This document shows positions 1 through 32,850 of a stretch of 41,066 nucleotides of DNA, piece after piece. The notes under the pieces are model-generated. The model saw nothing but the letters and a program-made list of their open reading frames with translations. It did not search any database and was not told where the DNA came from. This DNA comes from a virus. The stretch spans positions 1-41,066 of the IMG/VR virus record IMGVR_UViG_3300035670_000514. One strand, written 5' to 3'. Position 1 is the first letter of the stretch, and each line of letters begins with the position of its first letter. The translations under genes and the position numbers were made by a program.

Positions 1-855
1 CAGCGCCGCCGCGCCGTGGGCTTGCAGCATATCGCGCACCCAGCCAGCGGCGGCATCATCCGTGCCGAAGTCCACGTCACCGTTGGTCATCAAACCCGGC
101 ACCGCCACGAAGTCAGCGGCACCCGTCAGCTGGCGCACCAGCGACGGCGCGACCCGACAATGCTCCTCAAAACTGCCCAGCCAGCGCACCGTTCCGTGAT
201 CCTGCCAGCCGCCCACAGTTTCCAGCGCCGCAAAGGCGGCGCGGCGCAGTGCTTCGGGCGAACACAAAAGCCACGCCGCCCGCGCCACGTCCAGCGGCGC
301 GGTGTCCAGCCGCACAGCCATGCAAGCGGGCTTGTCAGCGCCGTTTCGCGCCGCGAAGTAAACCCACAAGTCAACCGGGCGGGTGGCGGCGGCGATGCGG
401 GCGAAGGCCAGCGCCGCCGCGCCACGGCGCGCAATTGTCGTTTCATTGACTGACTGTGACACGCCCAGTTCAAGCGCCACAGTCAGCGGTGCGGCGTCAT
501 CCAGCTGACGCACCCGCCGCCGCATAGTCAGCGGCGCGCCCGCCAGATAAGCGGGGACGTTAGGCGCACCGCCCGCCACGCTGTCTACGGTGCGCCAGCG
601 GCGCGATTGGACGCCCACGGCATCCTCAAAGCGCGCCAGCATCGCGTCAGCCAGCGCCACCCGCTTCACGTCACCGCCGCGCGCGCGGCGCAGCGTCAGC
701 GCGGCGCTAGCACCCACCCAGCTGTCACCGTCCCGCTCTGTCCAATTGCGGGCGGTGCTGCCCGCCAGCGCGTCAGCAAAAGCCGCTGGGCTGTCAAAGC
801 GCGCACCCGGCACCGCACCCCATTTAGTCCCGCCGTCCACAGTCACCGTCAGCAT
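1..855 (-). CDS. DUF7192-like phage protein, C-terminus beyond window
   Basis: This leftward reading frame starts with ATG at 855 and is still open at base 1, so at least 285 residues are visible and the C-terminus is missing. The start overlaps the stop of the upstream ATPase gene by one base (TAATG), so translation is probably coupled. Visible features are WTERDGDSW near residue 38, then GGAPNVPAYLAGAPLTMRR and a following RRGAAALAFARI...VDLWVYF stretch. This order (a GG.P.VP.YLAG.P..MRR block, then an RRGAA helix and a V.LWV strand) is what I remember from DUF7192 proteins of phages, which often accompany AAA ATPase and VWA (CobT-like) genes. The function is unknown. No catalytic motif is visible. 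The family call comes from memory of the pattern and is moderately sure; that the frame is coding is well supported by the coupling and by its clean length. Confidence 0.7.
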   Translation of the reverse strand, partial: MLTVTVDGGTKWGAVPGARFDSPAAFADALAGSTARNWTERDGDSWVGASAALTLRRARGGDVKRVALADAMLARFEDAVGVQSRRWRTVDSVAGGAPNVPAYLAGAPLTMRRRVRQLDDAAPLTVALELGVSQSVNETTIARRGAAALAFARIAAATRPVDLWVYFAARNGADKPACMAVRLDTAPLDVARAAWLLCSPEALRRAAFAALETVGGWQDHGTVRWLGSFEEHCRVAPSLVRQLTGAADFVAVPGLMTNGDVDFGTDDAAAGWVRDMLQAHGAAAL

Positions 856-2060
856 TATGCCACCTCAATTTGCTTGCGCTGGGCATCAGTCAGCCCAGCA
901 AGGTAAGTCAGCTGGGCGGCGCGATCCGGCGTCATGCCCGCCCGGATTAGCGCCGCGCCGTGGACGCTGGCGCGCGGCGTGATTAGCACTTTAAGCCCAG
1001 CTTTCACCGCCGCCGCCCGCGCGCGCTGCACCCGCGCCGCCCAGTCAGGATTACCACAGCTGGCGGTTTCAAGCTTGTCATCATAGGCCCAGTCCAGCCG
1101 CACCCAGCGGTCCAAAAAAGCGCCGTCCAGCTTATTCCGCCCGATGTATTCGGCAGTTGCGCCGTGGCCCCATGTATTCCCGGCACCGATGCAAACAAAG
1201 TCAGCGTGGCGCGTGATAGTCTCGCCCGTGGGCAGCGTCATAGCACCGTTATCCAGCGGGCCGTTCAAGGTGGTGGTCAGATTGGCGTCAGAGCTGTCCA
1301 CCTCGTCCAGCAAACACAGCCCGCCGTCCCGATAGAACCGGGTGAACGGCGTTTCGTGAAACGTCCCGGCAGCGTCCACAAAGCCCAGCAATTCGTGCGG
1401 TTGCATCATGGCACCCATTGCAGCGAAAGACAGGCCCAGTGCTTCGGCAGCTTGGCGGGCGGCGGTGGTTTTGCCAGATCCAGCTGGGCCAGCGATCCAA
1501 GCGTTGAGACGCTGCCCGCTGGGCTTGCGGGCGGTGACGATAGAAATCAGATCGGCCAGCATGGGATGCCGGGTCGGCGGCAGTTCAGCACCCAGCCGCT
1601 GGCCGTCCCGATCCACCACCAGCAAGCTGGGCGCGGCGGCTTCCAAGTCAGAAACGCGCGCTTCCAGCGCCGCCACGGCGTCGGCAGTGCCAGCGCCAGC
1701 ACCAGCCAGCGCGCCAGCGATTGCCGCCGTGATAGTTTGGGCCAGTGCGGCAGCGTCCACGCCGCCAGCGGGTGCGGTTGGTGCGGCGGCAGTTACCGGG
1801 CGGCGGTTGTCAAACAGGCCAGCGGGTGCGGTGGGTGCGGTATAGGTCACAGTCTCGTTCTCCTCTGTATCGGTTGCGGCGGCAGCGCCGCCCAGAATTG
1901 CGGTTACGTCCAAGCCAAGGTGCCGCGCCACGTCCACGGCGCGCGCTGATCCAAGGGATGCAGTGTCAACGCCGTGGGTGCGGCGGTATGCTGCCCAGTC
2001 AGGATGGGCAGCGATAGCGCGGCGCAGTGCGGCGCGCTGTGCATTTGAAATCGCTGTCAT
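855..2060 (-). CDS. MoxR/CobS-type AAA+ ATPase
   Basis: A 401-aa AAA+ ATPase. The N-terminal ~60 residues are a small helical domain (NAQRAALRRAIAAHPDW...HLGLDVTAILGG), followed by an Ala/Thr/Pro-rich linker and a short coiled coil. The AAA core holds Walker A GPAGSGKT (about residues 191-198), Walker B CLLDEVDSS (Asp252-Glu253), sensor-1 CIGAGNT and an Arg-finger-like DGAFLDRWVRLDW. This arrangement is that of MoxR/CbbQ/CobS ATPases, which remodel partner proteins, usually with a VWA-domain protein. I chose the ATG at 2060 because it overlaps the stop of the 29-aa peptide gene (TGATG); a GTG at 2108 in the same frame would overlap that gene entirely. The partner is probably the DUF7192-like protein downstream, plus whatever lies left of the window. 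The substrate is unknown. Confidence 0.85.
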   Translation of the reverse strand: MTAISNAQRAALRRAIAAHPDWAAYRRTHGVDTASLGSARAVDVARHLGLDVTAILGGAAAATDTEENETVTYTAPTAPAGLFDNRRPVTAAAPTAPAGGVDAAALAQTITAAIAGALAGAGAGTADAVAALEARVSDLEAAAPSLLVVDRDGQRLGAELPPTRHPMLADLISIVTARKPSGQRLNAWIAGPAGSGKTTAARQAAEALGLSFAAMGAMMQPHELLGFVDAAGTFHETPFTRFYRDGGLCLLDEVDSSDANLTTTLNGPLDNGAMTLPTGETITRHADFVCIGAGNTWGHGATAEYIGRNKLDGAFLDRWVRLDWAYDDKLETASCGNPDWAARVQRARAAAVKAGLKVLITPRASVHGAALIRAGMTPDRAAQLTYLAGLTDAQRKQIEVA

Positions 2061-2149
2061 CACAGCACCCACAAGCCAAGGGCAAGCAAGCCAAACAAGA
2101 CGGCGCACCCAGCGGCGGCGTCCAGATAGTCAAAAAGAGTAGGTTTCAT
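2060..2149 (-). CDS. 29-aa single-pass membrane peptide
   Basis: A short gene with ATG at 2149 preceded by AGGA nine bases upstream. The peptide is MKPTLFDYLDAAAG followed by a hydrophobic stretch CAVLFGLLALGLWVL that could span the membrane once. Its TGA overlaps the ATG of the AAA ATPase, which argues that it is translated and coupled. It is the first gene after the leftward promoter near 2229. Function unknown; it might anchor or signal to the ATPase complex, but that is inference. Confidence 0.5.
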   Translation of the reverse strand: MKPTLFDYLDAAAGCAVLFGLLALGLWVL

Positions 2150-2201
2150 GATCGGTCATCCTATGCAGAGCCGCGCCACGGATTGCGGGCGGTGACACAG
2201 A

Positions 2202-2229
2202 TTTATCCGATATTTTAAGTCACAGTCAA
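2202..2229 (-). promoter_or_regulatory. Leftward promoter for the left arm
   Basis: On the minus strand TTGACT (2229-2224) is followed by a 16-bp spacer and GATAAA (2207-2202). The -35 lies in an extended sequence, TATAGCTTGAC, that recurs at the other leftward promoter near 40805. It would start transcription just ahead of the 29-aa peptide gene. Confidence 0.5.
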
Positions 2230-2268
2230 GCTATACTCTGCATCAATGAATTCAATGTGTTGCGCGTA

Positions 2269-2282
2269 TTAACGGCCGTTAA
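2269..2282. repeat. 14-bp perfect palindrome
   Basis: TTAACGGCCGTTAA reads the same on both strands. It lies about 40 bp upstream of the leftward -35 and contains one of the five GTTAAC sites of the control region. A dimeric regulator site is the simple reading. Confidence 0.5.
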
Positions 2283-2334
2283 CACTCCTGAAAAACTGCA
2301 TTTTCGCCCCTAATGAAATCAAACAGTTATGAAT

Positions 2335-2405
2335 GTTAACAGCGCAATGCCATATGGCACTGCGCAAGGTGCTTTACTACACTGCGCAGCAACTAAAGGG
2401 TTGCT
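2335..2405 (+). repeat. Structured control element, copy 1
   Basis: Starts with GTTAAC, then AGCGCAATGC, a TGCCATATGGCA palindrome, stem CTGCGCA/TGCGCAG (2360-2366 with 2383-2389) around the loop AGGTGCTTTACTACAC, and then stem AGCAACT/GGTTGCT (2388-2394 with 2399-2405) closed by an AAAG loop. A second copy at 3074-3147 has the same order and the same loops. It may be an untranslated RNA or a DNA site that extrudes a hairpin. Confidence 0.55.
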
Positions 2406-2764
2406 CGCGCGCGCGCGGAGCGCACCCGCTCGCACCCCGTTGCCCTAGGGGTTCAGAAGGCCAGCAAAGGGCAGGGGAAAAGCCCGGTTGCATGTCATGT
2501 GAAGGGCGAGAAAGGGCGAAAGGGTGCGAAAGAGGGCCGCTAAAGGGGCAACTAAGGGCAAGGGGCGGGGCAGGTATAGGCAAGGGGCGAGTTTGCGCTG
2601 TATGGGCCGCTTTCGCGCACCTATCGGAAAGCATACCAATTGAATACCAATATACTAAACATGTTAACGATATGTGCGCGCCTGCCCATCACGCGACGCT
2701 GCGCTGTCACCGGGCGGCGCTGCGGGACTGTTCACATGTTAAACAAAGTCAAGTCAGACATAGT

Positions 2765-2795
2765 TTAACGCTATTCCTTTCAGGAATAGCGTTAA
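2765..2795. repeat. 13-bp inverted repeat (hairpin)
   Basis: TTAACGCTATTCC and GGAATAGCGTTAA are exact reverse complements separated by TTTCA. No T-run follows on either strand, so it is not a typical terminator. It sits directly beside the AGTCAGGGC iterons, which suggests an origin or operator function. Confidence 0.6.
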
Positions 2796-2803
2796 CGCAG
2801 CGC

Positions 2804-2889
2804 AGTCAGGGCCGCAGTCAGGGCGAGTCAGGGCAAGTCAGGGCCAATAAAACAAGGGGATTTGGCCTAGTCAGGGCCGCAGTCAGGGC
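2804..2889 (+). repeat. Six AGTCAGGGC iterons
   Basis: Exact copies of AGTCAGGGC start at 2804, 2816, 2826, 2836, 2869 and 2881. The spacings (12, 10, 10, 33, 12) are close to whole helical turns, so a protein could bind all copies on one face. The core AGTCAGGG also appears singly in coding sequence elsewhere in the window. Confidence 0.7.
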
Positions 2890-2944
2890 CTGACTTGGTC
2901 GCGCGACCCCCCACCCGGGTCGGTCGGCGGGGGGCAGGATGATT

Positions 2945-2975
2945 TTGACACCTCGACAGGGCGGCAGCTTAAAAT
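2945..2975 (+). promoter_or_regulatory. Possible rightward promoter
   Basis: TTGACA (2945-2950) and TAAAAT (2970-2975) are near-consensus but 19 bp apart, slightly long. A transcript from here would carry the second structured element as a leader of the gene at 3228. Confidence 0.35.
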
Positions 2976-3073
2976 TTTTCGCGCACCAAAAATTTTTTCG
3001 CAGTAATTTCAGCGGCATAAGGAGATGTTTGCAATTCGTGCATCGTCAAGTTTGACTATGTAATCGCAAACTT

Positions 3074-3185
3074 GTTAACGAGCGCGATGCTTTAAGGCGT
3101 ATGCGCAAGGTGATTTACTACATCGCGCAGTCCACTAAAGAGTGGACAGCACGCGCAGGAGCGCTTTGCTGTCCCCAGTGGACAG
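3074..3185 (+). repeat. Structured control element, copy 2, with alternative stems
   Basis: Matches copy 1 from GTTAAC (3074) through AGCGCGATGC, stem TGCGC/GCGCA (3102-3106 with 3125-3129) and loop AAGGTGATTTACTACA. The second stem is GTCCACT/AGTGGAC (3130-3136 with 3141-3147) with the same AAAG loop. Stem letters differ from copy 1 but pairing is kept. Here the region extends: AGTGGACAG is repeated at 3177-3185, so GTCCACT can pair with either copy, and GGACAGCA/TGCTGTCC (3144-3151 with 3167-3174) forms a competing stem. The last copy overlaps the -35 of the promoter at 3179. Confidence 0.55.
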
Positions 3186-3208
3186 GTAGGGCGAAGTAAC
3201 TCTATACT
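3179..3208 (+). promoter_or_regulatory. Rightward promoter before the first late-arm gene
   Basis: TGGACA (3179-3184), 18-bp spacer, TATACT (3203-3208). The start would fall near 3215, leaving a very short leader with the ribosome site CAGGAGG just before ATG 3228. The -35 lies inside the AGTGGACAG repeat, so a protein bound to that repeat would block it. Confidence 0.5.
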
Positions 3209-3227
3209 CTGCTCAGGAGGTGCCATC

Positions 3228-3626
3228 ATGGGATCGAAGCTACAGTTGGTTCCTGCAAAGGACAGAGAAGGCGATGACGCGATTCAGCGGGCGGCGGTGC
3301 AGTCACGCTACGCGATGGATACGGTCAGTCAGAAGCTCTTGAAGGAGACAGGGCGGCGCGCTGCTCTGCGGCTCTTTGCGCTTTTGGGCGACGACGAGAA
3401 GTGGGATGCAGTTGGGCCGCGCAACCAGATCGCGTTGATTGAGACCGCGCTGACTCGGGCCTTTGGCCGCGTTGAGACTGTGACTGCTGATGAGAAGTTG
3501 GTCGGAGACAAGGACAGCGTGGCTGGTGCGCTGCCGTCCCACTTGCGCGCTTTGGCTGGCAGCCTCGACTTGCCGGAGCTTCGTGGAGCAAAGGCTGCGA
3601 CAAAAGTTGACGGCGAGGGCAACTGA
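3228..3626 (+). CDS. Unrecognised 132-aa protein, first gene of the rightward arm
   Basis: A mostly helical, charged protein with no motif I recognise. The start has a strong ribosome site (AGGAGG, 8 nt upstream). It has its own promoter with repeats over the -35 and is followed by a strong intrinsic terminator (3659-3709), so it behaves as a separately controlled unit rather than simply the head of the late operon. Two readings are open: a small terminase subunit, based on its place near the large terminase, or a regulator such as an antiterminator, based on the terminator and operator around it. No helix-turn-helix is obvious by eye. Confidence 0.8.
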   Translation: MGSKLQLVPAKDREGDDAIQRAAVQSRYAMDTVSQKLLKETGRRAALRLFALLGDDEKWDAVGPRNQIALIETALTRAFGRVETVTADEKLVGDKDSVAGALPSHLRALAGSLDLPELRGAKAATKVDGEGN

Positions 3627-3658
3627 GCGTAGTCTTCGCTCACCTCCCTTGGTTACTT

Positions 3659-3709
3659 CCTGCGGCTACCTGACCTCCTCCTCCCACGGTAGCCGCAGGT
3701 TCTCTTTTT
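3659..3709 (+). terminator. Strong rho-independent terminator
   Basis: CCTGCGGCTACC (3659-3670) pairs with GGTAGCCGCAGG (3688-3699), a perfect 12-bp stem with a 17-nt loop, followed by TTCTCTTTTT. It would stop transcription after the 132-aa gene unless overridden, so late genes need read-through or another promoter. Confidence 0.85.
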
Positions 3710-3720
3710 CAGGAGCCGAC

Positions 3721-3852
3721 ATGCCGCTGAAGTCAGGAAAGAGCCAGAAGGTCATCTCTGCGAACATTCGGACTGAGATGAAAGCTGGTAAGCCGCAGAA
3801 GCAGGCGATTGCCATTGCTTTGTCGAAAGCAGGAAAAGGACGGAAGAAATGA
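3721..3852 (+). CDS. 43-aa basic protein of a conserved aquatic-phage family
   Basis: MPLKSGKSQKVISANIRTE... followed by KPQKQAIAIALSKAGKGRKK. This Lys-rich small protein, with SQK.IS.NI.TE and KPQKQA.AIALS blocks, is familiar from many environmental phage genomes (sometimes annotated DUF6496-like). Function unknown; the charge suggests nucleic-acid or capsid binding. The ribosome site CAGGAG lies just after the terminator T-run. The gene overlaps the next by 4 bases (ATGA), starting a chain of four overlapping tiny genes. Confidence 0.75.
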   Translation: MPLKSGKSQKVISANIRTEMKAGKPQKQAIAIALSKAGKGRKK

Positions 3853-3950
3853 AGAAGCCGATGAAGTTTGCGCCCTGCAAGGGCTGCCCTACTCCTGCCA
3901 AATGCAAGGCTGCTGGTCGCTGCTTGGCTAAGGGCGGCTACAAGAAATGA
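3849..3950 (+). CDS. 33-aa four-cysteine peptide
   Basis: MKKPMKFAPCKGCPTPAKCK... with cysteines spaced C-x2-C-x5-C-x5-C, then AKGGYKK. The pattern suggests a very small zinc-binding knuckle, though no His is present. It overlaps its neighbours by 4 bases on each side (ATGA both times), good evidence for translation despite its size. Similar tiny CKGC peptides occur in aquatic phages. Function unknown. Confidence 0.65.
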   Translation: MKKPMKFAPCKGCPTPAKCKAAGRCLAKGGYKK

Positions 3951-4093
3951 GCAAGGGTCTGTACGCCAACATTCACGCAAAGCGTAAGCGCATTGAAGCT
4001 GGGTCTGGCGAGAAGATGCGGAAGGTCGGGTCTAAAGGCGCTCCGACCGCTGCTGCCTTCAAAGCCTCTGCCAAGACTGCGAAAAAGAAATGA
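3947..4093 (+). CDS. 48-aa basic protein
   Basis: Begins MSKGLYANIHAKRKRIEAGS and contains GEKMRKVGSKGAPTAAAFKA, ending AKTAKKK. The GLYANI.AK..RI..GSGEKMR..G..GAPT pattern is a known conserved small phage protein without assigned role. Strongly basic. It overlaps both neighbours by 4 bases in the chain between 3721 and the terminase. Confidence 0.7.
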   Translation: MSKGLYANIHAKRKRIEAGSGEKMRKVGSKGAPTAAAFKASAKTAKKK

Positions 4094-4335
4094 AGAAGCG
4101 CGGCCCTTCGTTGTCAGTTGGCCGTGGTGAGAAGCTGCCTGTCTCCAAAGGGGCTGGGCTGACTGCGAAGGGCAGGGCGAAGTATAACGCTGCCACTGGC
4201 TCGAATCTGAAAGCGCCTGCGCCCAATCCAAAGACTGAGGCAGATGCTGGACGCAAGAAGTCCTTCTGCGCTCGGTCGAGCGGTTGGACTGGGGAGCGCG
4301 GCAAGGCTGCGCGGAAGCGATGGAACTGTGACTGA
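4090..4335 (+). CDS. 81-aa DUF6321-like protein
   Basis: Contains GRGEKLPVSKGAGLTAKGRA and NAATGSNLKAPAPNPKTE, then KKSFCARSSG...KRW near the end. GLTAKGR..YN..TGSNLK.P with a C-terminal SF.AR segment is how I remember DUF6321 proteins of phages. Basic and probably a nucleic-acid or head-associated protein; function unproven. Its last 8 bases overlap the GTG start of the large terminase. Confidence 0.7.
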   Translation: MKKRGPSLSVGRGEKLPVSKGAGLTAKGRAKYNAATGSNLKAPAPNPKTEADAGRKKSFCARSSGWTGERGKAARKRWNCD

Positions 4336-5749
4336 CGACGATCAGCTATACGCAGCGTTAGTGGCGAAGTGTGCCGTAGACAGGTACTTCTTCGTCACTG
4401 AGATTTTAGGCGTCGAGAAAGTCGAAGACTGGCAGCGCGAGACGATGGCTGCTCTTGATGCTGGCGAGACGCGGATTTCGATCCGCTCTGGTAACGGCGT
4501 TGGGAAGACGGCTTTGTGCGCTTGGCTGTCTGTCCACTACCTGCTGTTCCGCGACGACGTAAAGATTCCTGTGACTGCGCCGTCGAGTAGTCAGTTAAAA
4601 GACGGTTTGATCCCAGAGACGAAGCGGTGGATTAGTCGGCTGCCAGAGTTTCTGCGCGTCCAGATCGAAATGACTGAGGATCGCATCCGGCGCGTACCGG
4701 GAGGCGACAACAACTTCATCTCCTTCCGTACTGCTCGCGCTGACTCGCCAGAAGCTCTTGCTGGTATCCACGCAAGCCACGTCATGGCGATTGTAGACGA
4801 AGCGAGCGGTGTGCCGGACATCGTCTTCGAGTTTGCCGAAGGCACGATGTCGTCGGCGGGTTCGATCTTTATCTTGATCGGCAACCCGACGCGACCGACT
4901 GGCTACTTCCACAAGACGCACTCAATCCTCAAGCACAAGTGGTTCACCAAGAAGGTGTCGTCCTTCGACAGCTCGCGTGTGACCCAAGACTTCGTTGACA
5001 ACATTGCGCTGACTTACGGCACTGGCTCCAACACCTACCGCTACAAGGTATTGGGAGAGTTCCCAGAGAGCGTGTCCGATACCGTCATTCCGAAGGAGCT
5101 GATTGATGGCGCATGGGGACGAGACGTTGAGGCACTGCGCGGCGCAGAGCGCGTTTGGGGTGTGGACCCCGGACGGGGCGGCGACCCTACAGGATTTTGC
5201 ATCCGCGCCGAAAACATGCTCGAAGAACTCGTCGAGTGGTACGACGCTGACCTCATGCGAGTCACAGGCCGAGTCAAAGAGCGTTGGGACCGGACGCCCG
5301 ATAAGGAGCGACCTGTTAGCATATACGTTGACTCCATCGGTCTTGGAGCCGGGGTTGCCGACCGCCTGCGAGAGCTGGGCCTTCCGGCTGTTGACGTAAA
5401 CGTCGCGGAATCGCCGTCGATGAAGGACCGCTTCACGCGATTGAGAGCGGAGCTGTGGTACGCAGTCAGGGATTGGCTGGAGCAACGAAATGTCGCGTTT
5501 CCGAAGGACTTGGCCCTTACTGAAAAGCTCATGGCGGAATTGGCGGAGCCTCAAGCGGTCTTTACGTCCACTGGCAAGGCAGATGTCGAGTCTAAGCAAG
5601 CGATGAAGCAGCGCGGGGTGCGGTCGCCCAACTTGGCCGACGCCCTGTGCCTGACTTTTGCTGGCGGCGGGGCGATTGCAGTCGGTCGGTCGAATGGCCG
5701 CAATAGCTGGAAAAAACCGTTAAACTGGATCGCACCGTCGATCTACTAA
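4328..5749 (+). CDS. terL: Terminase large subunit
   Basis: A 473-aa packaging motor. ATPase domain: Walker A SGNGVGKT at about residues 54-61 and Walker B VMAIVDEAS (Asp157-Glu158); ILIGNPTRPTG is the coupling motif. Nuclease domain: GVDPGRGGDP (Asp280), SIYVDSIGLGAG (Asp335) and NLADALCL near the C-terminus give the three acidic metal ligands of the RNase H fold. I start it at the GTG at 4328, which overlaps the previous gene; the upstream in-frame ATG at 4244 would add 28 residues that merely mirror the preceding gene in another frame. A complete, intact gene. Confidence 0.95.
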   Translation: MTDDDQLYAALVAKCAVDRYFFVTEILGVEKVEDWQRETMAALDAGETRISIRSGNGVGKTALCAWLSVHYLLFRDDVKIPVTAPSSSQLKDGLIPETKRWISRLPEFLRVQIEMTEDRIRRVPGGDNNFISFRTARADSPEALAGIHASHVMAIVDEASGVPDIVFEFAEGTMSSAGSIFILIGNPTRPTGYFHKTHSILKHKWFTKKVSSFDSSRVTQDFVDNIALTYGTGSNTYRYKVLGEFPESVSDTVIPKELIDGAWGRDVEALRGAERVWGVDPGRGGDPTGFCIRAENMLEELVEWYDADLMRVTGRVKERWDRTPDKERPVSIYVDSIGLGAGVADRLRELGLPAVDVNVAESPSMKDRFTRLRAELWYAVRDWLEQRNVAFPKDLALTEKLMAELAEPQAVFTSTGKADVESKQAMKQRGVRSPNLADALCLTFAGGGAIAVGRSNGRNSWKKPLNWIAPSIY

Positions 5750-5759
5750 GGAGAAAGAC

Positions 5760-5990
5760 ATGACAAAAGGCGAGTATCGCGTCGGCATCAACTTCAACCC
5801 GTCTGCTGATGCCACTGTCGGCAAGATCAAGCGCGCTGCGGCTGACTTAATTGACATGATTGAGTCGATAACGGCAAGCCACGGCGGCGACCAGTACAAC
5901 GAAGTAACGCGCCTGAAGGCGTTGGCTCAGACGGACATCGAAAGCGCTGCCATGTGGGCCGTCAAGGCCGCAACCAAACCCGCCCCGTAA
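5760..5990 (+). CDS. acb2: Acb2/Tad1-type cyclic-nucleotide sponge (anti-CBASS/anti-Thoeris)
   Basis: A 76-aa protein: YRVGINFNPSADATVGKIKR near the N-terminus and RLKALAQTDIESAAMWAVKA near the C-terminus, two helices joined by a short turn. The Y-R...FNPS....V..IK..aa.LID and LKALA.T.IE.AAMW.VKA blocks match what I know of the Acb2/Tad1 hairpin domain family (also DUF7681). Characterised members bind cyclic di- and trinucleotides of CBASS, and some bind Thoeris signals, shielding them from host effectors. The start has a good ribosome site (AAGGAG). It sits alone between terminase and portal in the late arm, an odd place for an anti-defence gene. Binding is not shown for this protein. Confidence 0.75.
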   Translation: MTKGEYRVGINFNPSADATVGKIKRAAADLIDMIESITASHGGDQYNEVTRLKALAQTDIESAAMWAVKAATKPAP

Positions 5991-5996
5991 GGTGCG

Positions 5997-6025
5997 TTGA
6001 CCGCATAGGCGCTGACTGGTAGGAT
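5997..6025 (+). promoter_or_regulatory. Weak promoter candidate before the head genes
   Basis: TTGACC (5997-6002), 17-bp spacer, TAGGAT (6020-6025), in the 69-bp gap after the Acb2-like gene. It could supply late transcription after the terminator at 3659, but the -10 is poor. Confidence 0.3.
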
Positions 6026-6059
6026 GCGGCAGTCAGAACTGTCAGCTTGGAGGCTGGAC

Positions 6060-6230
6060 ATGCCTATTCGTGGCGTTAAGAACCCCTTTCCGAAAGTCAT
6101 GCCGCCGACCAATGGCGGGATGTTCTCTGCAAATGGGACACAGAAAATGGACCCCGTAAAGCAGTCGGCAGTGGTCAAAAAGACCGTTGCTGAAGCGATG
6201 CGGTCCAACGGCAAAGTCGGTAAGAGCTGA
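6060..6230 (+). CDS. 56-aa unknown protein
   Basis: Starts MPIRGVKNPFPKVMPPTNGG; the remainder is polar (DPVKQSAVVKKTVAEAMRSN). I chose ATG 6060 because TTGGAGG precedes it at the right distance. It overlaps the next gene by one base (TGATG). No family recognised. Confidence 0.6.
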   Translation: MPIRGVKNPFPKVMPPTNGGMFSANGTQKMDPVKQSAVVKKTVAEAMRSNGKVGKS

Positions 6231-6364
6231 TGTCGGTCACGATCTCGCCGCCCAGTCCAAACAACAAGGCGAGTGCTTACGGCGCGACCGTCAACCATGT
6301 GAAGCACCGCAAAATCGACGAGACCAAGCCAGAAATTCTTGTGGCGATTGTCGATAACCGCTGA
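6230..6364 (+). CDS. 44-aa unknown protein
   Basis: MSVTISPPSPNNKASAYGAT then VNHVKHRKIDETKPEILVAI. Its ATG overlaps the stop of the preceding gene, and it ends 16 bases before the portal start. Accepted on coupling and position; no function visible. Confidence 0.55.
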   Translation: MSVTISPPSPNNKASAYGATVNHVKHRKIDETKPEILVAIVDNR

Positions 6365-6380
6365 CTTTTGAGGGCAGGAA

Positions 6381-8534
6381 ATGGCTGAAGACATCTGGAA
6401 CGTCGAAAACTACGTCCCTCCTGCCGAGGATCAAGTCATCGACTTAGACGACGCGGTGCATGAGCTAGGCGCTCTCATTGAGACCGCCTGCAACTTCATT
6501 GACGAAGACTTCATGCCTGAGTGGGAGACTGCTCAGAAGTACTACGACGGCCTGACTGACCTGCCGACCGTGACTGGCCGTTCCAAAGTCGTGATGACTG
6601 CGGTGCGCGACGCCATTCGCAGCGCACGTCCGTCGCTCCTGCGCGTCTTTTTGCAAGCAGACACTATCGTCGAGTACATTCCTGACGGTGTTCGGCCTGC
6701 TGAATTGGCTGCCCAGCAGTCCAAATACGTCAATTCGCTGTTCTTCCGCTCAAACGGCTACCGCGCACTCTACGACGTGATGCAAAACGCCATGCTGAAG
6801 AAGCTCGGCGTGATGAAATTCTGGTTCGATGACTCGACAGAAGTCAGATACGTCGATGTCACTGCCGTTCCTGCCGACGAAATGGAGCGGATCGCTGCCC
6901 GCGAAGACGTGCAGATCATGTCCGCCATGCCGTCCGCGTCCATGCCCGTCATCATCACGCCTGACGGCACTCCTATCCAGCTTTTTGACGCCAAAGTCGC
7001 CATTTTCGATAAAAAAGGCGAAATTAGGGTCGAAAGTGTGCCGCTGGAGGAGTTTTTCATCGACGAAAACGCCTCTGGACTGGACGATTTCCGCGTTATC
7101 GGCCACCGCCGCCAAATGCGGGTCGGCACTGCCGTTGCAATGGGTCTGCCGTTTGAAGTTCTGGACGGTTTGGACACTCTGGACCCCGAACTCTACGCTG
7201 GCGCTGGTGAATCCGAGTATCGCCGTGGCTACGCCAAAGTCGAAGAACAGGAATCTATGGACCGCATGATGCGGCTCGTTCTTGTGACTGAGTGCTACGC
7301 CTACTACGACCTCGAAGGCATCGGCGTCCCGCAGCTTTACTGCTTCTGGCTTGGCGGCACGAATTACGAGCTTCTGGACTACGAAAAAGCCGCTCAAGTG
7401 CCGTTTGGTCTGATTTCCATCGACCCAGAGCCGGGAACCGTCTTCGGCAAGTCCGTTTTCGACGTGACCAAGCAGCCGCAAGACACCATGACCTCGCTGA
7501 TGCGGGCGACTGTGGACAACGCGCACTTGTCCAACAACCGCCGTCTGGCCGTCCACGACACCCTCGTCAACCTCGACGACGTGATGAACCCTGCCATTGG
7601 CGCACCGATCCGCACCAAAGCACCGGGCCAAATCCAAGAAATCGGCGTCCAGTCAACGATTTCGTCGATGTTGCCCCTCTTGCAGTTTCTTCAGCAAGAC
7701 ACTGAGAAGAAAGTCGGCATCACTGGCGCTGCAATGGGTCTGGATCACGACGCCTTGCAGTCAACAACCCGCGAAGCCGCCATGAACACGATCCAGCTCT
7801 CGCAGGGCCAGATCGAAGTCATGGCCCGCAACATCGCAGAGGGCCTGAAGACCGTTTTCAACGGCATCCTCAAGCTGTCGATGTGGCACCTGCCGCGTCA
7901 ACAAGTCATGGAAGTCAACGGCGCTTACCTGCCCGTAGACACCACTATGTTCGACGCCAACCTGTTCATGCGGGCCAACGTCGGCCTTGGGACCGGGGAC
8001 GCCACCGAGAAGCTGGCCGGATTGCAGGGCGTCTTGGCCCAGCAGAAGGAAATCATCGCCACAATGGGGCCGCAGAACCCGATTGTGAGCTATCGGAACG
8101 TCTACAACACCCTTGAAGACATGACGAAGCTCTACGGCATCTACAACGTCAGCCGCTACTTCTCCGCCGTGACGCCGGAAGTCGAGCAGATGCTGGCCCA
8201 GCAGGCCCAGCAAGCTGCTGCCAACCAGCAGCCTGTCGTTGACCCCGGCACCGCCATGATCGAAGCCGAGAAGATCAAGGCACAGCTCAAAGAACGCGAA
8301 CTCTACGTCAACGCTCTCTTGGAGGAGCGCCGTATCGCCCTCGACAATCAGATCAAGGCGCTGGAGTTTGCTGCCAAGGACGATCTGGAGCGCGATAAGA
8401 TGGCGCAAGACCTCCAAATCGCTGCCTCAAAGTCAAGGATCGACGAGCGCAAAATCAAACTTGAACAAGAGAAGATTCGGTCTGCACCGTATACTCCTCC
8501 CGAAACAGAACCTGTGAACCCACCCAATGTCTGA
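6381..8534 (+). CDS. Portal protein (podovirus type)
   Basis: A 717-aa portal, similar in length to the P22 portal. The N-terminal half holds WETAQKYYDGLTDLPTVTGR, DAIRSARPSLLRVF and MLKKLGVMKFWFDD, the usual wing/stem region. The middle has QDTMTSLMRATVDNAHLSNN and STTREAAMNTIQ; the C-terminal ~120 residues are a long charged helix (EAEKIKAQLKERELYVNALL...), as expected of a barrel. It forms the dodecameric DNA gate at the capsid vertex. The preceding AGGGCAGGAA is the ribosome site. Scaffold and capsid genes follow in the standard order. Confidence 0.92.
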   Translation: MAEDIWNVENYVPPAEDQVIDLDDAVHELGALIETACNFIDEDFMPEWETAQKYYDGLTDLPTVTGRSKVVMTAVRDAIRSARPSLLRVFLQADTIVEYIPDGVRPAELAAQQSKYVNSLFFRSNGYRALYDVMQNAMLKKLGVMKFWFDDSTEVRYVDVTAVPADEMERIAAREDVQIMSAMPSASMPVIITPDGTPIQLFDAKVAIFDKKGEIRVESVPLEEFFIDENASGLDDFRVIGHRRQMRVGTAVAMGLPFEVLDGLDTLDPELYAGAGESEYRRGYAKVEEQESMDRMMRLVLVTECYAYYDLEGIGVPQLYCFWLGGTNYELLDYEKAAQVPFGLISIDPEPGTVFGKSVFDVTKQPQDTMTSLMRATVDNAHLSNNRRLAVHDTLVNLDDVMNPAIGAPIRTKAPGQIQEIGVQSTISSMLPLLQFLQQDTEKKVGITGAAMGLDHDALQSTTREAAMNTIQLSQGQIEVMARNIAEGLKTVFNGILKLSMWHLPRQQVMEVNGAYLPVDTTMFDANLFMRANVGLGTGDATEKLAGLQGVLAQQKEIIATMGPQNPIVSYRNVYNTLEDMTKLYGIYNVSRYFSAVTPEVEQMLAQQAQQAAANQQPVVDPGTAMIEAEKIKAQLKERELYVNALLEERRIALDNQIKALEFAAKDDLERDKMAQDLQIAASKSRIDERKIKLEQEKIRSAPYTPPETEPVNPPNV

Positions 8535-8754
8535 TGCCTTCACAAAGGCCCGTAAAGCACGGGAATTATTGCAAGATTCCGTAGTCACGGACATCTTGAA
8601 TCAGATGGTTGCAGAAGCGTTCGCAGAATTTTGTTCCGTTGATAGTCAAGACACGTTAAAGATGGGCCATATTCACGCCCGAGTCAGGGCAGTGGATACA
8701 TTTCGAGCAACACTGCGCAACCTCGCGCGGACGGTCGATGAAGGGAAGCCCTAA
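8527..8754 (+). CDS. 75-aa helical protein between portal and scaffold
   Basis: MSDAFTKARKARELLQDSVV ... DTFRATLRNLARTV. All-helical and charged, with no motif known to me. It overlaps the portal by 8 bases and its TAA shares a base with the ATG of the scaffold gene. Small proteins at this point are common in podovirus head modules and may help head assembly; that is inference. Confidence 0.7.
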   Translation: MSDAFTKARKARELLQDSVVTDILNQMVAEAFAEFCSVDSQDTLKMGHIHARVRAVDTFRATLRNLARTVDEGKP

Positions 8755-9788
8755 TGGCTCTGGAAGCCGCTACACAGACCACGCAGCCAATGTCGATGGA
8801 CGACATCGCTGCATCCATGCTTGTCAAAGCCGACCCTGCCCCAGTGCAGGAGGACGACAAGAGAGCCGCTGACGAGGCTGAAACCGTCGAAACCGCGTCT
8901 GAAAACGACGCTGACTACGCTGAAAGCGACTATGACGCCGACAGCGACGTTCCTACCGATGACGCTGCTGAAGCAGACGATGAAAACTTCGAGACCTTCC
9001 AACTAACCGACGACGCGCTCGTCACGGTGACAGTTGATGGACAGGACAAAGAAGTCACGCTCGCTGACTTGAAACGCGCCTACTCGGGAGAAGGAGCAAT
9101 TGAGAAGCGCCTGCAAGTTGCCACTGAAGCCAGAAAACAGGCCGAAAACCTGAAGGTCCAAGTGGAGCAGGAGCTAAACACTGGCCGTCAAAACCTCGTG
9201 AAAGCGTTTTCTGCTTTCGAGAGCATGATGTTCCAACCGCAAGTCAGTCAGCCGGACCCGGCCCTTCGCCAGACCAACCCGACCCAATACCTCATGCAAA
9301 TGGAGGCTTGGAGGGACGATCAAGCGGAGCTTCAAACAAAGCGCGCCAAGGTCCAACAGGCTGTTCAGTTGTTTCAGCAGCAAGAAGCGCAGCAGCAAGA
9401 GCAGATGCGAGTCCAAACGGCTCAAAAGCTGGTCGAAGCTATGCCCGCCTTGCGCGACCCGGTAAAAGGCCCAGAATTGCAAAAGCTGATGCGGGAAGGC
9501 GCTAACGCCTACGGCATCAATGATGCAGAGCTGGCCGGATTCTTGGATCACCGGGTTTATCTCGCGCTTGCCGATCTGGGTGCCTACCATCGCCTCAAGG
9601 CGAAAGGGCAGTCAGCTCCAGTCAAGCCGAATAAAGCAACAACTGTCATGCGCCCCGGAGCAACTCGTGCTGTCGCATCAGCAGCCGCGTCAGCGAGGCA
9701 GCAGAAGGCCGCTCTGGAAACCGCGCGCAAGAGTGGTAGGGTCGAAGACATCGCCGCCACGTTGCTTGTCCGCAAACCGAAAAGGTGA
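8754..9788 (+). CDS. Capsid scaffolding protein
   Basis: 344 aa. The N-terminal ~80 residues are extremely acidic (EDDKRAADEAETVE, DYDADSDVPTDDAAEADDEN), followed by a VTVDGQDKEVTLADLKRAYS segment and long Gln/Glu-rich helices (EARKQAENLKVQVEQELNTG, QQQEAQQQEQMR). The Arg/Lys-rich C-terminal end (ALETARKSGR, RKPKR) may bind the capsid protein. The composition and the place directly before the major capsid gene are those of scaffolds in podoviruses with SU10-type capsids. It should leave the head at DNA packaging. Confidence 0.85.
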   Translation: MALEAATQTTQPMSMDDIAASMLVKADPAPVQEDDKRAADEAETVETASENDADYAESDYDADSDVPTDDAAEADDENFETFQLTDDALVTVTVDGQDKEVTLADLKRAYSGEGAIEKRLQVATEARKQAENLKVQVEQELNTGRQNLVKAFSAFESMMFQPQVSQPDPALRQTNPTQYLMQMEAWRDDQAELQTKRAKVQQAVQLFQQQEAQQQEQMRVQTAQKLVEAMPALRDPVKGPELQKLMREGANAYGINDAELAGFLDHRVYLALADLGAYHRLKAKGQSAPVKPNKATTVMRPGATRAVASAAASARQQKAALETARKSGRVEDIAATLLVRKPKR

Positions 9789-9794
9789 TTTATC

Positions 9795-10793
9795 ATGGCA
9801 GTCGATGCAGAAACCATCGAAACCTACGACAACACGGTTATCCGTGAAGACCTCGAACAGCAGTACACGATGATCTCCCCCGAGGAGACCCCGTTCCAGA
9901 CTGCTATCGGCGTTGGCCCGAAAGCCACTGCTACCTACCACGAGTGGACTGTCGTCGAACTGGCGACCCCCTCGACCTCGAACCGAGTCATCGAAGGTGA
10001 CGATGCTCCGGGTGAGGACGCTGGTACTCTTGGCAAGCGTTTCGGCAACTACACCCAGATCAGCGACAAAGTCGTGTCGGTGTCGAACACCTCGGAAGCT
10101 GTTGACGCAGCCGCCGAGAACGTGCAGCGCCTTGCAGCTCAGATCACTCTGAAGCTGAAAGAAATGAAGCGTGACATGGAATCCATGCTCCTTCAGAACG
10201 TCGCTGCTGCCGCTGGCTCGTCGGGTTCTGCCCGTGCGGCTGCTGGTCTGCCTGCTTGGCTCCGCACCAACATCGTCCTCGGTGTTGGCGGTGCTGCTCC
10301 CACGCTGTCCGGCACGACTTCGGGCCATCCTGACGCTACCCTGACTCCGGGTACTGCTGTTGCGCTGACTGAAGCCAACCTGAACAACGTGATCGAAGAC
10401 TGCTGGAACGAGGGCGCTACGCCGTCGATCATCATGGTCAACGCAAACAACAAGCGCGTGATCTCGCAGTCCTTCACGGGCAACTCGACCCGCTACAAGG
10501 ACGCTATCGACAAGCGCCTGACTGCGGCCATCGACGTTTATGACTCGGATTTTGGCGAGCTGACTGTGGTTCCTAACCGCTTCCAGCAGACCACTGCCGC
10601 AGACAACTACTCGGTCTACGTCCTTGACCCGGAATACGCGGAGCTGTGCTTCCTCGAAACCCCGCGTCAGACCGAACTGGCCCAGACTGGTCACGCAAAG
10701 CGTCGCATGGTCCACTGCGAATACACGCTGAAGGTCTCCAACGAAAAGGCCCACGGTGCCGTTCACGCCACCACTGGCGCGGCTCCCGCATAA
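9795..10793 (+). CDS. Major capsid protein, SU10 type
   Basis: 332 aa, HK97 fold expected. Diagnostic blocks: EEDLEQQYTMISPEETPFQT-like N-arm (written here as VIREDLEQQYTMISPEETPF), YHEWTVVELATPS, GDDAPGEDAGTLGKRFGNYTQ and a MESMLLQN helix, then PSIIMVNANNKRVISQ and VYVLDPEYAELCFLETPRQT. These match SU10/DUF5309-type capsid proteins of podoviruses. The ribosome site is weak by eye (AAAAGG). Codon choice is visibly more C-ending than its neighbours, as in highly expressed genes. A hairpin follows the stop at 10803-10828. Confidence 0.92.
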   Translation: MAVDAETIETYDNTVIREDLEQQYTMISPEETPFQTAIGVGPKATATYHEWTVVELATPSTSNRVIEGDDAPGEDAGTLGKRFGNYTQISDKVVSVSNTSEAVDAAAENVQRLAAQITLKLKEMKRDMESMLLQNVAAAAGSSGSARAAAGLPAWLRTNIVLGVGGAAPTLSGTTSGHPDATLTPGTAVALTEANLNNVIEDCWNEGATPSIIMVNANNKRVISQSFTGNSTRYKDAIDKRLTAAIDVYDSDFGELTVVPNRFQQTTAADNYSVYVLDPEYAELCFLETPRQTELAQTGHAKRRMVHCEYTLKVSNEKAHGAVHATTGAAPA

Positions 10794-10802
10794 CCAACCA
10801 AC

Positions 10803-10828
10803 TGAGGCGGCAGGCAACTGCCGCCTCA
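10803..10828 (+). terminator. Hairpin after the capsid gene
   Basis: TGAGGCGGCAG pairs with CTGCCGCCTCA over a GCAA loop, a perfect 11-bp stem with a stable GNRA tetraloop. There is no T-run, so it is more likely an mRNA 3'-end protector or partial terminator that raises the capsid transcript above downstream genes. Confidence 0.6.
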
Positions 10829-10850
10829 CCCCACTCAAACGAGGGACGAC

Positions 10851-11093
10851 ATGACTGAAGAACCGATTGCCGAAGTCGCTATCGACGCTGCCGATGACTC
10901 GCTGCCGAAGCGCCGCGCCAAGAAGGACGAGGCTCCTGCCTTGACCAAATACACAGTCATCAATGGCGCGATTTCTCCGAATGGCGGTGGCCGCGCATCC
11001 TTGATTCATCCCGGCTCCGTTGTCGCGCTGACTGCTGAGCAAGCCAAGCACTACAACCAGCTTGGCTACCTGAAGCCCTACATCGGGGACTAA
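10851..11093 (+). CDS. 80-aa head-region protein, DUF7210-like tail
   Basis: An acidic N-terminus (MTEEPIAEVAIDAADDS), a basic patch (PKRRAKKDEA), then a small domain KYTVINGAISPNGGG...IHPGSVVALTAEQAKHYNQLGY. The 'pG..V.Lt.eqA.....lGYl' pattern resembles a small conserved phage domain found next to capsid genes. Possibly a head-completion or decoration protein. Ribosome site GAGGGA. Confidence 0.65.
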   Translation: MTEEPIAEVAIDAADDSLPKRRAKKDEAPALTKYTVINGAISPNGGGRASLIHPGSVVALTAEQAKHYNQLGYLKPYIGD

Positions 11094-11096
11094 AAT

Positions 11097-11399
11097 ATGA
11101 GCCTGCCCGTTCAGCCCATTGTCGAGCGCCTGTATCTAGATTCAAATGGCACGTCGTTCCACATCATCAAACAGCAGAACGTGCAGGCTATCCTCGACGC
11201 TGCCAAAGACGCAGCGGATACGCTCAAGCCGAACACTGGCCCGGTCGGCGGCAAATACCTCGGCACTGTGCCTGTTCTGATCGCCCAACAATGGGCAAAA
11301 GAATGTGGTGCTGCTGTGGGGTCGCGCGAGTGGGCAAAGTATGCTAAAACGAAGCTGAAAGACGGCACTTGGGCGCGTCTGAGGGTGCATCAGAAATGA
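11097..11399 (+). CDS. 100-aa unknown neck-region protein
   Basis: Contains YLDSNGTSFHIIKQQNVQAI and REWAKYAKTKLKDGTWARLR. No recognised family. It lies between the capsid accessory gene and the adaptor and overlaps the adaptor start by 4 bases (ATGA). A role in head completion fits position only. Confidence 0.7.
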   Translation: MSLPVQPIVERLYLDSNGTSFHIIKQQNVQAILDAAKDAADTLKPNTGPVGGKYLGTVPVLIAQQWAKECGAAVGSREWAKYAKTKLKDGTWARLRVHQK

Positions 11400-12022
11400 A
11401 CTATGCAGCGTTCAAGGCTTATTTGGCTCGCTTCGTCTGGCGCAACGGCGACACAGTGTTCGAGGCTGACTTGGACAACATGATCGACATGGCCCATGCG
11501 CGCCTGAACCGCGATCTGCGGATTCAGCGCATGGTCGTGACTGCCGAGGCTCCGCTGACTGCTGACACACTGGTCCTGCCTGCTGACTATAACGAAATGC
11601 GGACCATCACGTCGGATAGCCCTCCTGCTCCGATGCAGTACGTCAGCCCTTACGAGCGCGAGCGGATCAAGCTGGCAAACGCCTCGACGTTCCAGCCAAT
11701 CTACACCATCGCAGGCAACGCTATCTTCTTCGTCGGCCCAATGGCAGCGACGGACAATCCTCCGCGCAGCGTGACGATGACTTACTTTGCCAAAGTCCCT
11801 GACTTTGCGACAACTGACTCGTCGTGGCTCGCAGACGAGTATCTCGACCTCTACACCTACGCTGTTCTGCGCCACACGCCTGCCTATTTAAAAGACGACG
11901 AGCGCGTGGTATTGTGGAAGAACGAATACGACGAGACGCTGGCGTCTGTCGTCAATGCTGAAGCTGGACGGCGATATGCGGGCAGCCCGCTCCGTCCCAT
12001 GATGCCGGGAGTTGTCGCATGA
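11396..12022 (+). CDS. Head-tail adaptor, SU10/gp4 type
   Basis: 208 aa starting MNYAAFKAYLARFVWRNGDT. The core DLDNMIDMAHARLNRDLRIQ, DTLVLPADYNEMRTITSD and a YFAKVPDF...WLADEYLDLYTYAVLRH block are typical of the podovirus adaptor that binds the portal and extends the neck (SU10_adaptor-like). I prefer ATG 11396, overlapping the preceding stop, over the in-frame upstream start at 11369, which lies inside the previous gene. Confidence 0.82.
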   Translation: MNYAAFKAYLARFVWRNGDTVFEADLDNMIDMAHARLNRDLRIQRMVVTAEAPLTADTLVLPADYNEMRTITSDSPPAPMQYVSPYERERIKLANASTFQPIYTIAGNAIFFVGPMAATDNPPRSVTMTYFAKVPDFATTDSSWLADEYLDLYTYAVLRHTPAYLKDDERVVLWKNEYDETLASVVNAEAGRRYAGSPLRPMMPGVVA

Positions 12023-12399
12023 GCTTGTCCAATACCTTCGAGACTACGACTCTACAGTGGTTGTTCACCACTACGTCTGTGACTCGCCCGACCGCGTGGT
12101 ATCTGGCCCTCTACACTGTAGCCCCCAGCGACACTGGCGGCGGCACTGAGTGCAGCGGCACGTCCTACGCCAGACAGTCCTTCACGTTTACTGTGTCAGG
12201 CGACACCGCCACCAACAGCGCAAACGTCGAATTTCCTGTCGCTGGATCGTCGTGGGGTACTCTGGTCGCAGTCGGTGTCTTCGACGCTCTGAGCGGCGGC
12301 AATCTGATTGCCTACGGCAACCTGACCACGTCCAAGACCATCGACACCGGGGACGTGTTCCGCATCCCTGCGGGCGATCTGGACATCACCCTCGACTGA
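12019..12399 (+). CDS. 126-aa beta-sandwich tail/fibre-associated protein
   Basis: TAWYLALYTVAPSDTGGGTE, SYARQSFTF, SSWGTLVAVGVFDALSGGN, LIAYGNLTTSKTIDTGD and IPAGDLDITLD. This order (YLALYT..P...G.E.sG..YARq.......WG....fGifDa..GG.LL..g.Lt..k.i..GD.l.fpag.l...ld) is a widespread phage tail-associated protein (Gp80-like). Here it is coupled to the adaptor by a 4-base overlap and precedes the fibre genes. Confidence 0.75.
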   Translation: MSLSNTFETTTLQWLFTTTSVTRPTAWYLALYTVAPSDTGGGTECSGTSYARQSFTFTVSGDTATNSANVEFPVAGSSWGTLVAVGVFDALSGGNLIAYGNLTTSKTIDTGDVFRIPAGDLDITLD

Positions 12400-12411
12400 T
12401 AGGACTGCCCC

Positions 12412-13068
12412 ATGACCGTATACCGCACAGGCTACGGCACTGGGGCCTACAGCGCCTACGCTTATGGATTAGACGGCAGCATCGTTGATGCTGCCTCTGC
12501 CATTTCTGCAAGTGCAGCAGTCACTGCCGCAGCGCAGAAACTTGCTGACGGTGCCAGCACGATTACTGCCACAACGACGACCACTGCGGCTGCCCGCAGA
12601 GTGCGGCAGTCAGCCTCTCAAATCGCCATTACATCTGCGGTAACTGCGGCCTGTGTTGCCATCAAAGCTGGTGCTGCTGCTTTGTCTGCAAGCACGGCCC
12701 TGACTGCGGCTGGGTTGCGAGTGCTGCAATCACCTGCGACCAGTTCTGGCTCTGCAACTCTGACTGCTGACGCTACCGCAGTGCGCCAAAGCAGCAGTCT
12801 GGTTGCCGTAGAAACTACTGTCGCGGCTACGGCAGTCGCTGTTTATTTGGATCGCGCGCAGATTACGATAACCAGTGCGCTGACTGCTGTCGCAAATCGC
12901 GTGCATCTGACTAGTGCAACGATCCCTATTTCGTGTATAGTCAGCGCCAACGGGCGGCTTTTGTGGGAACCTGAAGCCCCTGACACGGAATCTTGGAGTG
13001 TCGTTTCCTCCGACACTGAGCTTTGGACACCAATTGCGCCTGACGTAGAGCCGTGGGCGGCAGAGTAG
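12412..13068 (+). CDS. 218-aa repeat protein, probable fibre or virion surface protein
   Basis: After a YGTGAYSAYAYGLDGS start, about residues 25-185 are made of roughly 20-residue repeats rich in Ala, Ser and Thr, each with a VRQSAS.IAITSAVTAA-like core. At least seven are visible, probably beta-strand repeats forming a shaft. The C-terminal end has three W-containing segments (TESWSVVSSDTELWTPIAPD ... EPW). No enzyme motif. The place before the collar fibre suggests a fibre component. The repeats are degenerate at DNA level. Confidence 0.65.
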   Translation: MTVYRTGYGTGAYSAYAYGLDGSIVDAASAISASAAVTAAAQKLADGASTITATTTTTAAARRVRQSASQIAITSAVTAACVAIKAGAAALSASTALTAAGLRVLQSPATSSGSATLTADATAVRQSSSLVAVETTVAATAVAVYLDRAQITITSALTAVANRVHLTSATIPISCIVSANGRLLWEPEAPDTESWSVVSSDTELWTPIAPDVEPWAAE

Positions 13069-13080
13069 GGAGCCTGACTG

Positions 13081-13863
13081 ATGGCAGATACGACGACAAC
13101 GCACTTTGGTTTCGTCAAACCAGAAGTCGGGGCCAGCTCCGACACTTGGGGGACCAAGCTCAATACCGACCTTGACAGCATCGACACGCTGCTTGGTAAC
13201 GGGTCGCCGATGAAGATCGACACGGTAAATGATCGTATCGGCATTAACACTGCATCGCCAACGACGGCGCTGGATGTGGTGGGGACGGTCAAAGCGACTG
13301 CGTTTCAAGGCGACGGCTCTGCTCTGACTGGTATTGTGTCTATTCCTACTGGCCTTATTGCCATATGGTCTGGCGCTGCAAACGCAATCCCGTCTGGTTG
13401 GTTCCTATGCGACGGCGCAAACGGCACTCCCAACTTGCGTGATCGTTTTGTTGTTGGCGCTGGCACGACCTATGCCGTAGGCGCGACTGGCGGTCAGAAT
13501 GCCATCACGTCCGTCCCGGCCCACACGCACGGTTCTGGAAACTTTGTCACCAGCAACACTGGCGACCACGCCCACAACGGCTCGACCTCAAACTCAGGCA
13601 ATCATGGTCACAATTTTGGCGGGCAAACTCCGCTTTATAAAACCGCAAATAGTAATAACATTGTTTTCAATGGGCTTTCTGGCGCTAATGGAATTAGCGC
13701 CGCTGTCACCATTGCTGCTGGAGGCGCTCACGCGCATAACTTTAGCACTTCAACAACTGGCGCGCACTCTCACAACGTGAGCGGAAACACGTCCAGTGCG
13801 GGCAATGCATCGGTAGATACTCGCCCGCCTTACTATGCGCTCTGCTACATTATGAAAGGCTAA
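13081..13863 (+). CDS. Tail fibre with collar-like tip
   Basis: 260 aa. The N-terminus ([28 protein letters not shown]) is the virion-attachment segment common in fibres. Then [20 protein letters not shown] (a repeated fibre shaft motif) and the collar domain: [33 protein letters not shown]. The tip has five His-x-His pairs (HTHG, HAHN, HGHN, HAHN, HSHN), which chelate metal along the trimer axis in T4 gp12-like tips, and ends [12 protein letters not shown]. It probably contacts the host receptor. Confidence 0.85.
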
Positions 13864-13866
13864 GCC

Positions 13867-14915: not shown

Positions 14916-14918
14916 GCC

Positions 14919-18191: not shown

Positions 18192-18202
18192 GGAGATAGA
18201 CA

Positions 18203-19057: not shown

Positions 19058-19087
19058 TGTATTCTGCCCGCAACAGGGAGCCACACC

Positions 19088-22291: not shown

Positions 22292-22294
22292 CCC

Positions 22295-22996: not shown

Positions 22997-23008
22997 AGGA
23001 GACTTTCT

Positions 23009-32764: not shown

Positions 32765-32795
32765 TCTAATCTTCCTTCAGGTCTTAGCAGAGCCT

Positions 32796-32845: not shown

Positions 32846-32850
32846 CAGTT

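Follow-up and report, generated by a model that had tools for sequence, protein, structure and literature searches.

A MoxR-type ATPase and DUF7192, its likely vWA-fold partner, form a nearly obligatory gene pair across phages

What work does a phage assign to a MoxR-type ATPase and the DUF7192 protein encoded beside it? The pair occurs in over 230 phages of staphylococci (phage K among them), in phages of Listeria, mycobacteria, and rhizobia, and in many uncultured phages. In current annotation, the ATPase often appears under "porphyrin biosynthesis" and DUF7192 as a hypothetical protein, and we found no mention of DUF7192 in the literature searched. Here, we analyze the pair in a window of 41,066 bases that constitutes an entire virus record (Table 1). 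We argue that the two genes probably specify a two-part MoxR–vWA remodelling machine that is made early and acts on a client outside the phage's own virion. If DUF7192 is read as the probable vWA partner, the metabolic label gives way to a testable mechanism composed of a ring, a finger, and a client. That reading also accounts for the inseparability of the two genes, and it raises the question of which protein is remodelled in the first minutes of infection.

Table 1. Features of the window and of the loci compared with it
Feature	Position	Strand or place	Basis or remark
Window	1..41,066		Whole IMG/VR virus record, 41,066 bases
29-aa membrane peptide, MKPTLFDYLDAAAGCAVLFGLLALGLWVL	2149-2060	(-)	Read from sequence
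CobS/MoxR-type AAA+ ATPase, 401 aa	2060-855	(-)	ORF and profile matches (phrog_249/AAA_5)
Walker A, GPAGSGKT	1467..1490	(-)	ATPase residues 191-198
Walker B, CLLDE	1302..1316	(-)	ATPase residues 249-253
DUF7192 protein (PF23822, phrog_1909), 285 aa in window	855-1	(-)	Family and fold; proposed vWA-fold partner
Most conserved DUF7192 motif, GGAPNVPAYLAGAPLTM	523..573	(-)	Residues 95-111; candidate pore finger
MIDAS DxSxS remnant, ELGVS	457..471	(-)	Residues 129-133, end of vWA strand 1
Intergenic region	2150..3227		Divergence point: pair leftward, terminase/virion genes rightward
GC-rich 35-bp tandem repeats	40888..41066	Right contig end	Array of the same kind follows DUF7192 in relatives
SprT-like gene upstream of the ATPase			L070, L042, L044, L058, L081, L091, L162, L186, L194, L039

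The pair and a small membrane peptide occupy the first 2.15 kb of the window, all on the (-) strand. Direct reading of the sequence places one-base overlaps of start and stop codons at 2060 (TGATG) and 855 (TAATG), and the three coupled genes described in the first-pass annotation are indeed present. The DUF7192 C-terminus runs off the window: relative to the 95%-identical G001, which ends in AALDA and a stop, two codons and the stop are missing. The membrane peptide is probably a real gene because, in four contigs of the window's lineage (among them G001, G002, and G003), it is kept even where the ATPase is only ~60% identical. It was not found in the other lineages carrying the pair, and this restriction to the window's lineage rules it out as a universal part of the operon. 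By comparison with the complete podovirus phiM5, the phiM5 direct terminal repeat falls in the counterpart of the intergenic region. A promoter scan of 2000-3400 returned one sigma-70-like site only, on the (+) strand and at chance level.

The ATPase matches phrog_249 (1.8e-50) and Pfam AAA_5 (1.3e-13). Its profile also matches the structures of Midasin, CobS, NorQ, and CbbQ; Midasin is the best match, far ahead of CobS (1.6e-10). In an alignment of six ATPases, Walker A residues G191, G194, G196, and K197 and Walker B residues D252 and E253 are invariant, and a conserved stretch, GFVDAxGxYHxTPF, lies between the two motifs. With an AAA+ core bearing Walker A and B and with MoxR, CobS, NorQ, CbbQ, and Midasin as its closest profiles, the protein classes by sequence as a MoxR-type AAA+ ATPase, and the MoxR/CobS-type call made at first pass is borne out. 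We note two oddities of annotation in relatives. The phage K ATPase is apparently split over gp219–gp220 (L093, 5304-6423), reflecting an intron, a frameshift, or annotation. In phiM5 (L006, 42460-42657), a 65-aa ORF is annotated within the ATPase gene in another frame and is marked as detected in the particle proteome.

Pairing of the ATPase with DUF7192 is nearly obligatory. An IMG/VR search with the ATPase found DUF7192 in 78 of 80 loci, essentially always adjacent, and the reciprocal search with DUF7192 found the ATPase in 78 of 80; in each case, the other two loci are truncated contigs. Among bacterial genome contigs, both genes occur in 15 of 16 strong matches, the sixteenth being truncated. 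Co-occurrence in other phages, which the first-pass annotation had named as the test of its reading, is thus strongly positive. GenBank phages extend the pattern: 236 Staphylococcus records match each gene, and for Mycobacterium the two genes have 80 and 86 matching records. The two genes are adjacent or near in phiM5, RHph_X2_24, Tunturi_4, phage K, MsGreen, P577, and P200, and they stand in reversed order in Enterococcus phage vB_CECAV_04. Across 89 non-redundant loci, the identity matrices of the ATPase and DUF7192 correlate with r=0.67, versus at most 0.09 for shuffles. A third universal partner is rejected, as the commonest neighbour family is present in only 13 of 95 loci. Some phages carry two copies of DUF7192, specifically MsGreen (L094, 3238-4065 and 6932-7792) and L024 (4782-6547, in tandem). 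Such double copies may give a single ATPase ring a choice of adaptors.

A VWA partner for the ATPase had been anticipated at first pass, encoded left of base 1. The expectation of a partner holds, and that partner is most likely DUF7192 itself; the proposed location does not hold. G001 ends in a tandem array resembling the one at the right end of the window. Two further contigs, L128 and L134, cross the array and run from DUF7192 through the repeats and a 36-aa hydrophobic peptide to a homologue of window gene 40477-40743. In phiM5, the ATPase and DUF7192 are followed by a Holliday junction resolvase on the opposite strand, and the phiM5 annotation lists no VWA gene. The junction-spanning contigs and phiM5 rule out a VWA gene at that location. 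Since relatives carry the same kind of array after DUF7192, the map closes at the repeats with no gene missing. The 36-aa peptide is common to L134 (1000-1110) and L128 (1352-1462).

What, then, is DUF7192? The window protein matches PF23822 at 7.1e-14 (52.2 bits against a curated cut-off of 27) and phrog_1909 at 6.8e-22. Its AlphaFold model, with 58 relatives in the input, has a pLDDT of 88, and the top PDB match of the model is the NorD vWA domain (E=4.2e-3, prob 0.93). For L044, a distant family member ~20% identical to the window protein, the model (pLDDT 89, 50 relatives in the input) has NorD vWA as all of its top four matches (best E=2.5e-5, prob 0.98). The Midasin MIDAS domain is also among the top fold matches, and among BFVD viral models, phage CobT/vWA proteins rank next after DUF7192 itself. 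Further fold matches of both models are nearly all vWA-type domains, with Z of 5.0-7.6; this agreement with the vWA fold is not proof, as Z below 8 is the range where a shared common arrangement can suffice. Taken as predictions, the models strongly indicate a vWA fold and cast DUF7192 as the likely vWA-fold partner of the ATPase. Proof of a vWA domain by sequence comparison failed, with no significant match from Pfam or from profile–profile comparisons. Specifically, the Pfam VWA profile does not match DUF7192, and a PDB sequence search with DUF7192 returned nothing. Alignment by hhalign to cyanophage CobT-vWA is short, off register, and not significant (E 0.10-0.17), and alignment to Cantare gp56 places DVSYS over NVVCS in the correct register, again without significance (E 0.17).

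Two motifs further define the family. At the predicted MIDAS position, 16 of 91 non-redundant members have [DN]x[ST]xS, and 7 have the strict form D-x-[ST]-x-S, which is also present in phiM5 gp63; at shifted columns, a DxSxS-like motif appears in at most 3 of the 91. The canonical DxSxS-T-D set is lacking: the window protein has lost the metal site, and most members are without a canonical MIDAS. Because the window carries ELGVS and the strict motif survives in so few members, we file DUF7192 as a degenerate variant rather than as a canonical MIDAS vWA domain. A MIDAS is also missing from several accepted vWA domains, for example those of Ku and Sec23/24. The most conserved motif lies elsewhere and follows the pattern G-x-x-P-x-V-P-A-Y-L-A-G-x-P-x-x-M across the family, with G95 conserved in 90, G106 in 80, P108 in 84, and M111 in 85 of 91 members. 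In the predicted models, it forms a strand-helix-strand element immediately preceding the vWA core and its strand 1. The NorD finger, which inserts into the pore of NorQ, sits just ahead of vWA strand 1 (PMC13036017, PMC9976466). By analogy, we infer that the DUF7192 element may be a NorD-like pore finger.

Comparison with known systems places the pair among MoxR machines while setting it apart from each of them. Like the window pair, NorQ–NorD (PDB 9qh6, 9qhd) consists of an adjacent MoxR AAA+ protein and vWA protein; the ATPase profile matches NorQ, NorD is the top PDB match of the DUF7192 models, and the hairpin-like element of DUF7192 occupies the NorD pore-finger position. However, NorD possesses an N-terminal domain and a linker, whereas DUF7192 is short and stands alone without either, and the DUF7192 pair has no NOR-type client, has mostly lost the MIDAS, and displays a different presumed finger motif. 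The S-PM2 p122–CobS and Cantare gp55–gp56 systems likewise set a phage MoxR ATPase beside a vWA partner, and the link to a metallopeptidase recurs. Their vWA domains have the full canonical set (DxSxS, T, D) and share one protein with an HExxH domain, whereas DUF7192 is encoded by itself or next to a distinct SprT-like gene, and sequence similarity between p122/gp56 and DUF7192 is undetectable. CobS–CobT and viral cobST (PMC8651126) share the AAA+ protein and vWA-type partner, and the window ATPase is CobS-similar; it nonetheless misses the CobS model, CobN is not nearby, and the DUF7192 sequence is not that of a CobT. Rea1/Midasin supplies the best ATPase profile match as well as the MIDAS domain noted above, but it is a single, giant protein of eukaryotes with a role in ribosome maturation.

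The metallopeptidase link takes a split form near DUF7192. Of 95 non-redundant loci, 10 have an SprT-like gene, its product bearing HExxH and a zinc-ribbon tail, immediately upstream of the ATPase gene. In p122 and gp56, vWA proteins that partner other MoxR ATPases of phages, HExxH stands at residue 75 and DxSxS near 421. This is the architecture described for group 2.2 jumbo phages, in which a MoxR protein accompanies a metallopeptidase–vWA fusion (PMC7824862). ATPase, vWA, and peptidase functions recur together, fused or split across phages. In L050, a relative of the SprT-like gene is located just after DUF7192.

The composition of the locus and its history tell different things. The first and second kb have a GC of 0.69 and 0.66, respectively, versus 0.52-0.64 elsewhere in the window, in agreement with the enrichment reported at first pass. 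The separate acquisition that had been read from it does not follow, because the excess of the pair (GC 0.66-0.70) sits in codon positions 1 and 2 and is driven by alanine (21%), GC3 (0.68-0.76) is within the range of other genes, and all relatives share the pattern. In phiM5, GC3 of the pair is below that of the genome (0.60 vs 0.77-0.82). Exchange is visible in gene trees. Within the window's lineage, TerL identity is 92-100%. Between G002 and the window, TerL, portal, and MCP are 95-99% identical, whereas the ATPase and DUF7192 are only 62% and 51% identical; the G002 pair is nearer to that of G003 (70% and 67%), though the G003 TerL is more distant. Over its first 40 residues, the ATPase stays 95% identical; beyond them, identity drops to ~57%, which marks a recombination boundary. 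These conflicting identities and this boundary show that the two genes are swapped together, as one cassette, among phages whose terminases are 92-99% identical. A host client would be consistent with how fast the pair diverges, though such divergence is no proof of one.

Whom the machine serves can be weighed from timing and divergence. Chaperones of virion assembly have been proposed for jumbo-phage MoxR–vWA pairs and reported for Acidianus two-tailed virus (PMC7824862), and the pair could likewise assist the folding or maturation of one of the phage's head or tail proteins; in many loci, it adjoins terminase genes encoded on the other strand. In phage K, a distant relative of the window phage and the only phage in this analysis with timing for the pair, gp220 (ATPase) and gp221 (DUF7192) belong to co-expression cluster C2, which peaks 2-5 min after infection, apart from the head and tail genes of cluster C4 (PMC11598898). 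The main texts of the Listeria CKA15 and Kayvirus 515A1 papers do not resolve when the individual genes of the pair are expressed. The early expression seen in phage K and a divergence uncoupled from that of TerL, portal, and MCP both speak against a part in building the phage's own virions. Moreover, the phiM5 record marks neither the ATPase nor DUF7192 as particle-detected, and G001 has changed tail-region genes (g13081-g14214) beside an unchanged pair, which rejects a tail protein as the client. We consider a role in virion assembly unlikely. The same early expression would suit an anti-defence or superinfection-exclusion system in place of general host remodelling, as would the swapping of the pair as a unit among close relatives and the small membrane peptides beside it in the window's lineage and in phage K. 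PADLOC gave no relevant match, a weak test given that its library consists of defence proteins; we judge this option somewhat unlikely.

Other alternatives concern what the proteins are. The PHROG label "porphyrin biosynthesis", the profile match to solved CobS, and an earlier suggestion that CobST of archaeal viruses and cyanophages acts in cobaltochelatase (PMC8651126) would make the pair CobS/CobT subunits, auxiliary metabolic genes that boost host cobalamin. Yet the NCBIfam scan of the ATPase, at E up to 0.1, did not match the cobaltochelatase CobS model, Midasin is a far better match than CobS, and DUF7192 has neither CobT sequence nor a MIDAS. The families scanned yielded neither CobN nor ribonucleotide reductase nor any further cobalamin gene, and neither CobN nor CobT is present among the scanned window genes or annotated in phiM5. 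With the CobS model unmatched and cobalamin genes absent from the families scanned, a cobaltochelatase is highly improbable. DUF7192 might instead be an obligate partner of the ATPase with a Rossmann-like layout that merely resembles vWA, as the silent sequence profiles, the modest Z scores, and the degenerate MIDAS would allow. The fold matches, however, are almost solely to vWA rather than to other Rossmann-like domains, with NorD first in both models; the strict DxSxS motif persists at the end of strand 1 in a minority of members; and the metallopeptidase association parallels true vWA systems. A non-vWA partner is, in our estimation, quite unlikely.

We therefore return to the MoxR–vWA remodelling machine. 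The notion is that the ATPase would form an AAA+ ring on which DUF7192, as a dedicated vWA-fold partner, would dock. Analogous to NorQD, the conserved finger of DUF7192 would enter the ring pore, and DUF7192 would transmit the motion powered by ATP to a client. Since most members, including that of the window, have lost the canonical MIDAS, they must bind the client in another way than NorD does. The presence of an SprT-like gene in the operon of some relatives suggests a possible coupling of remodelling with proteolysis. In the window phage, as in phage K, production would be early. The client is most likely a non-virion, host protein, our best remaining guess. We tentatively entertain a more specific version, namely an early takeover machine spread widely among phages of many unrelated bacteria, in which an AAA+ ring with a vWA adaptor without a metal site would unfold particular host proteins and, together with an SprT-like peptidase, cut them, the cassette being swapped between phages as their hosts change.

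Finally, two other genes of the window deserve mention. The DNA polymerase A gene (30158-32764, (-) strand) contains an in-frame insert of ~271 residues (339-609) with features of an intein: it begins with C, ends in HN|S, and matches Pfam Intein_splicing at 2e-7, and G003-G005 are without it. At 17790-18191 on the (+) strand, a gene without counterpart in the compared relatives encodes a small protein that begins with a signal-like stretch and matches a nuclease family (phrog_452, 3.1e-21).
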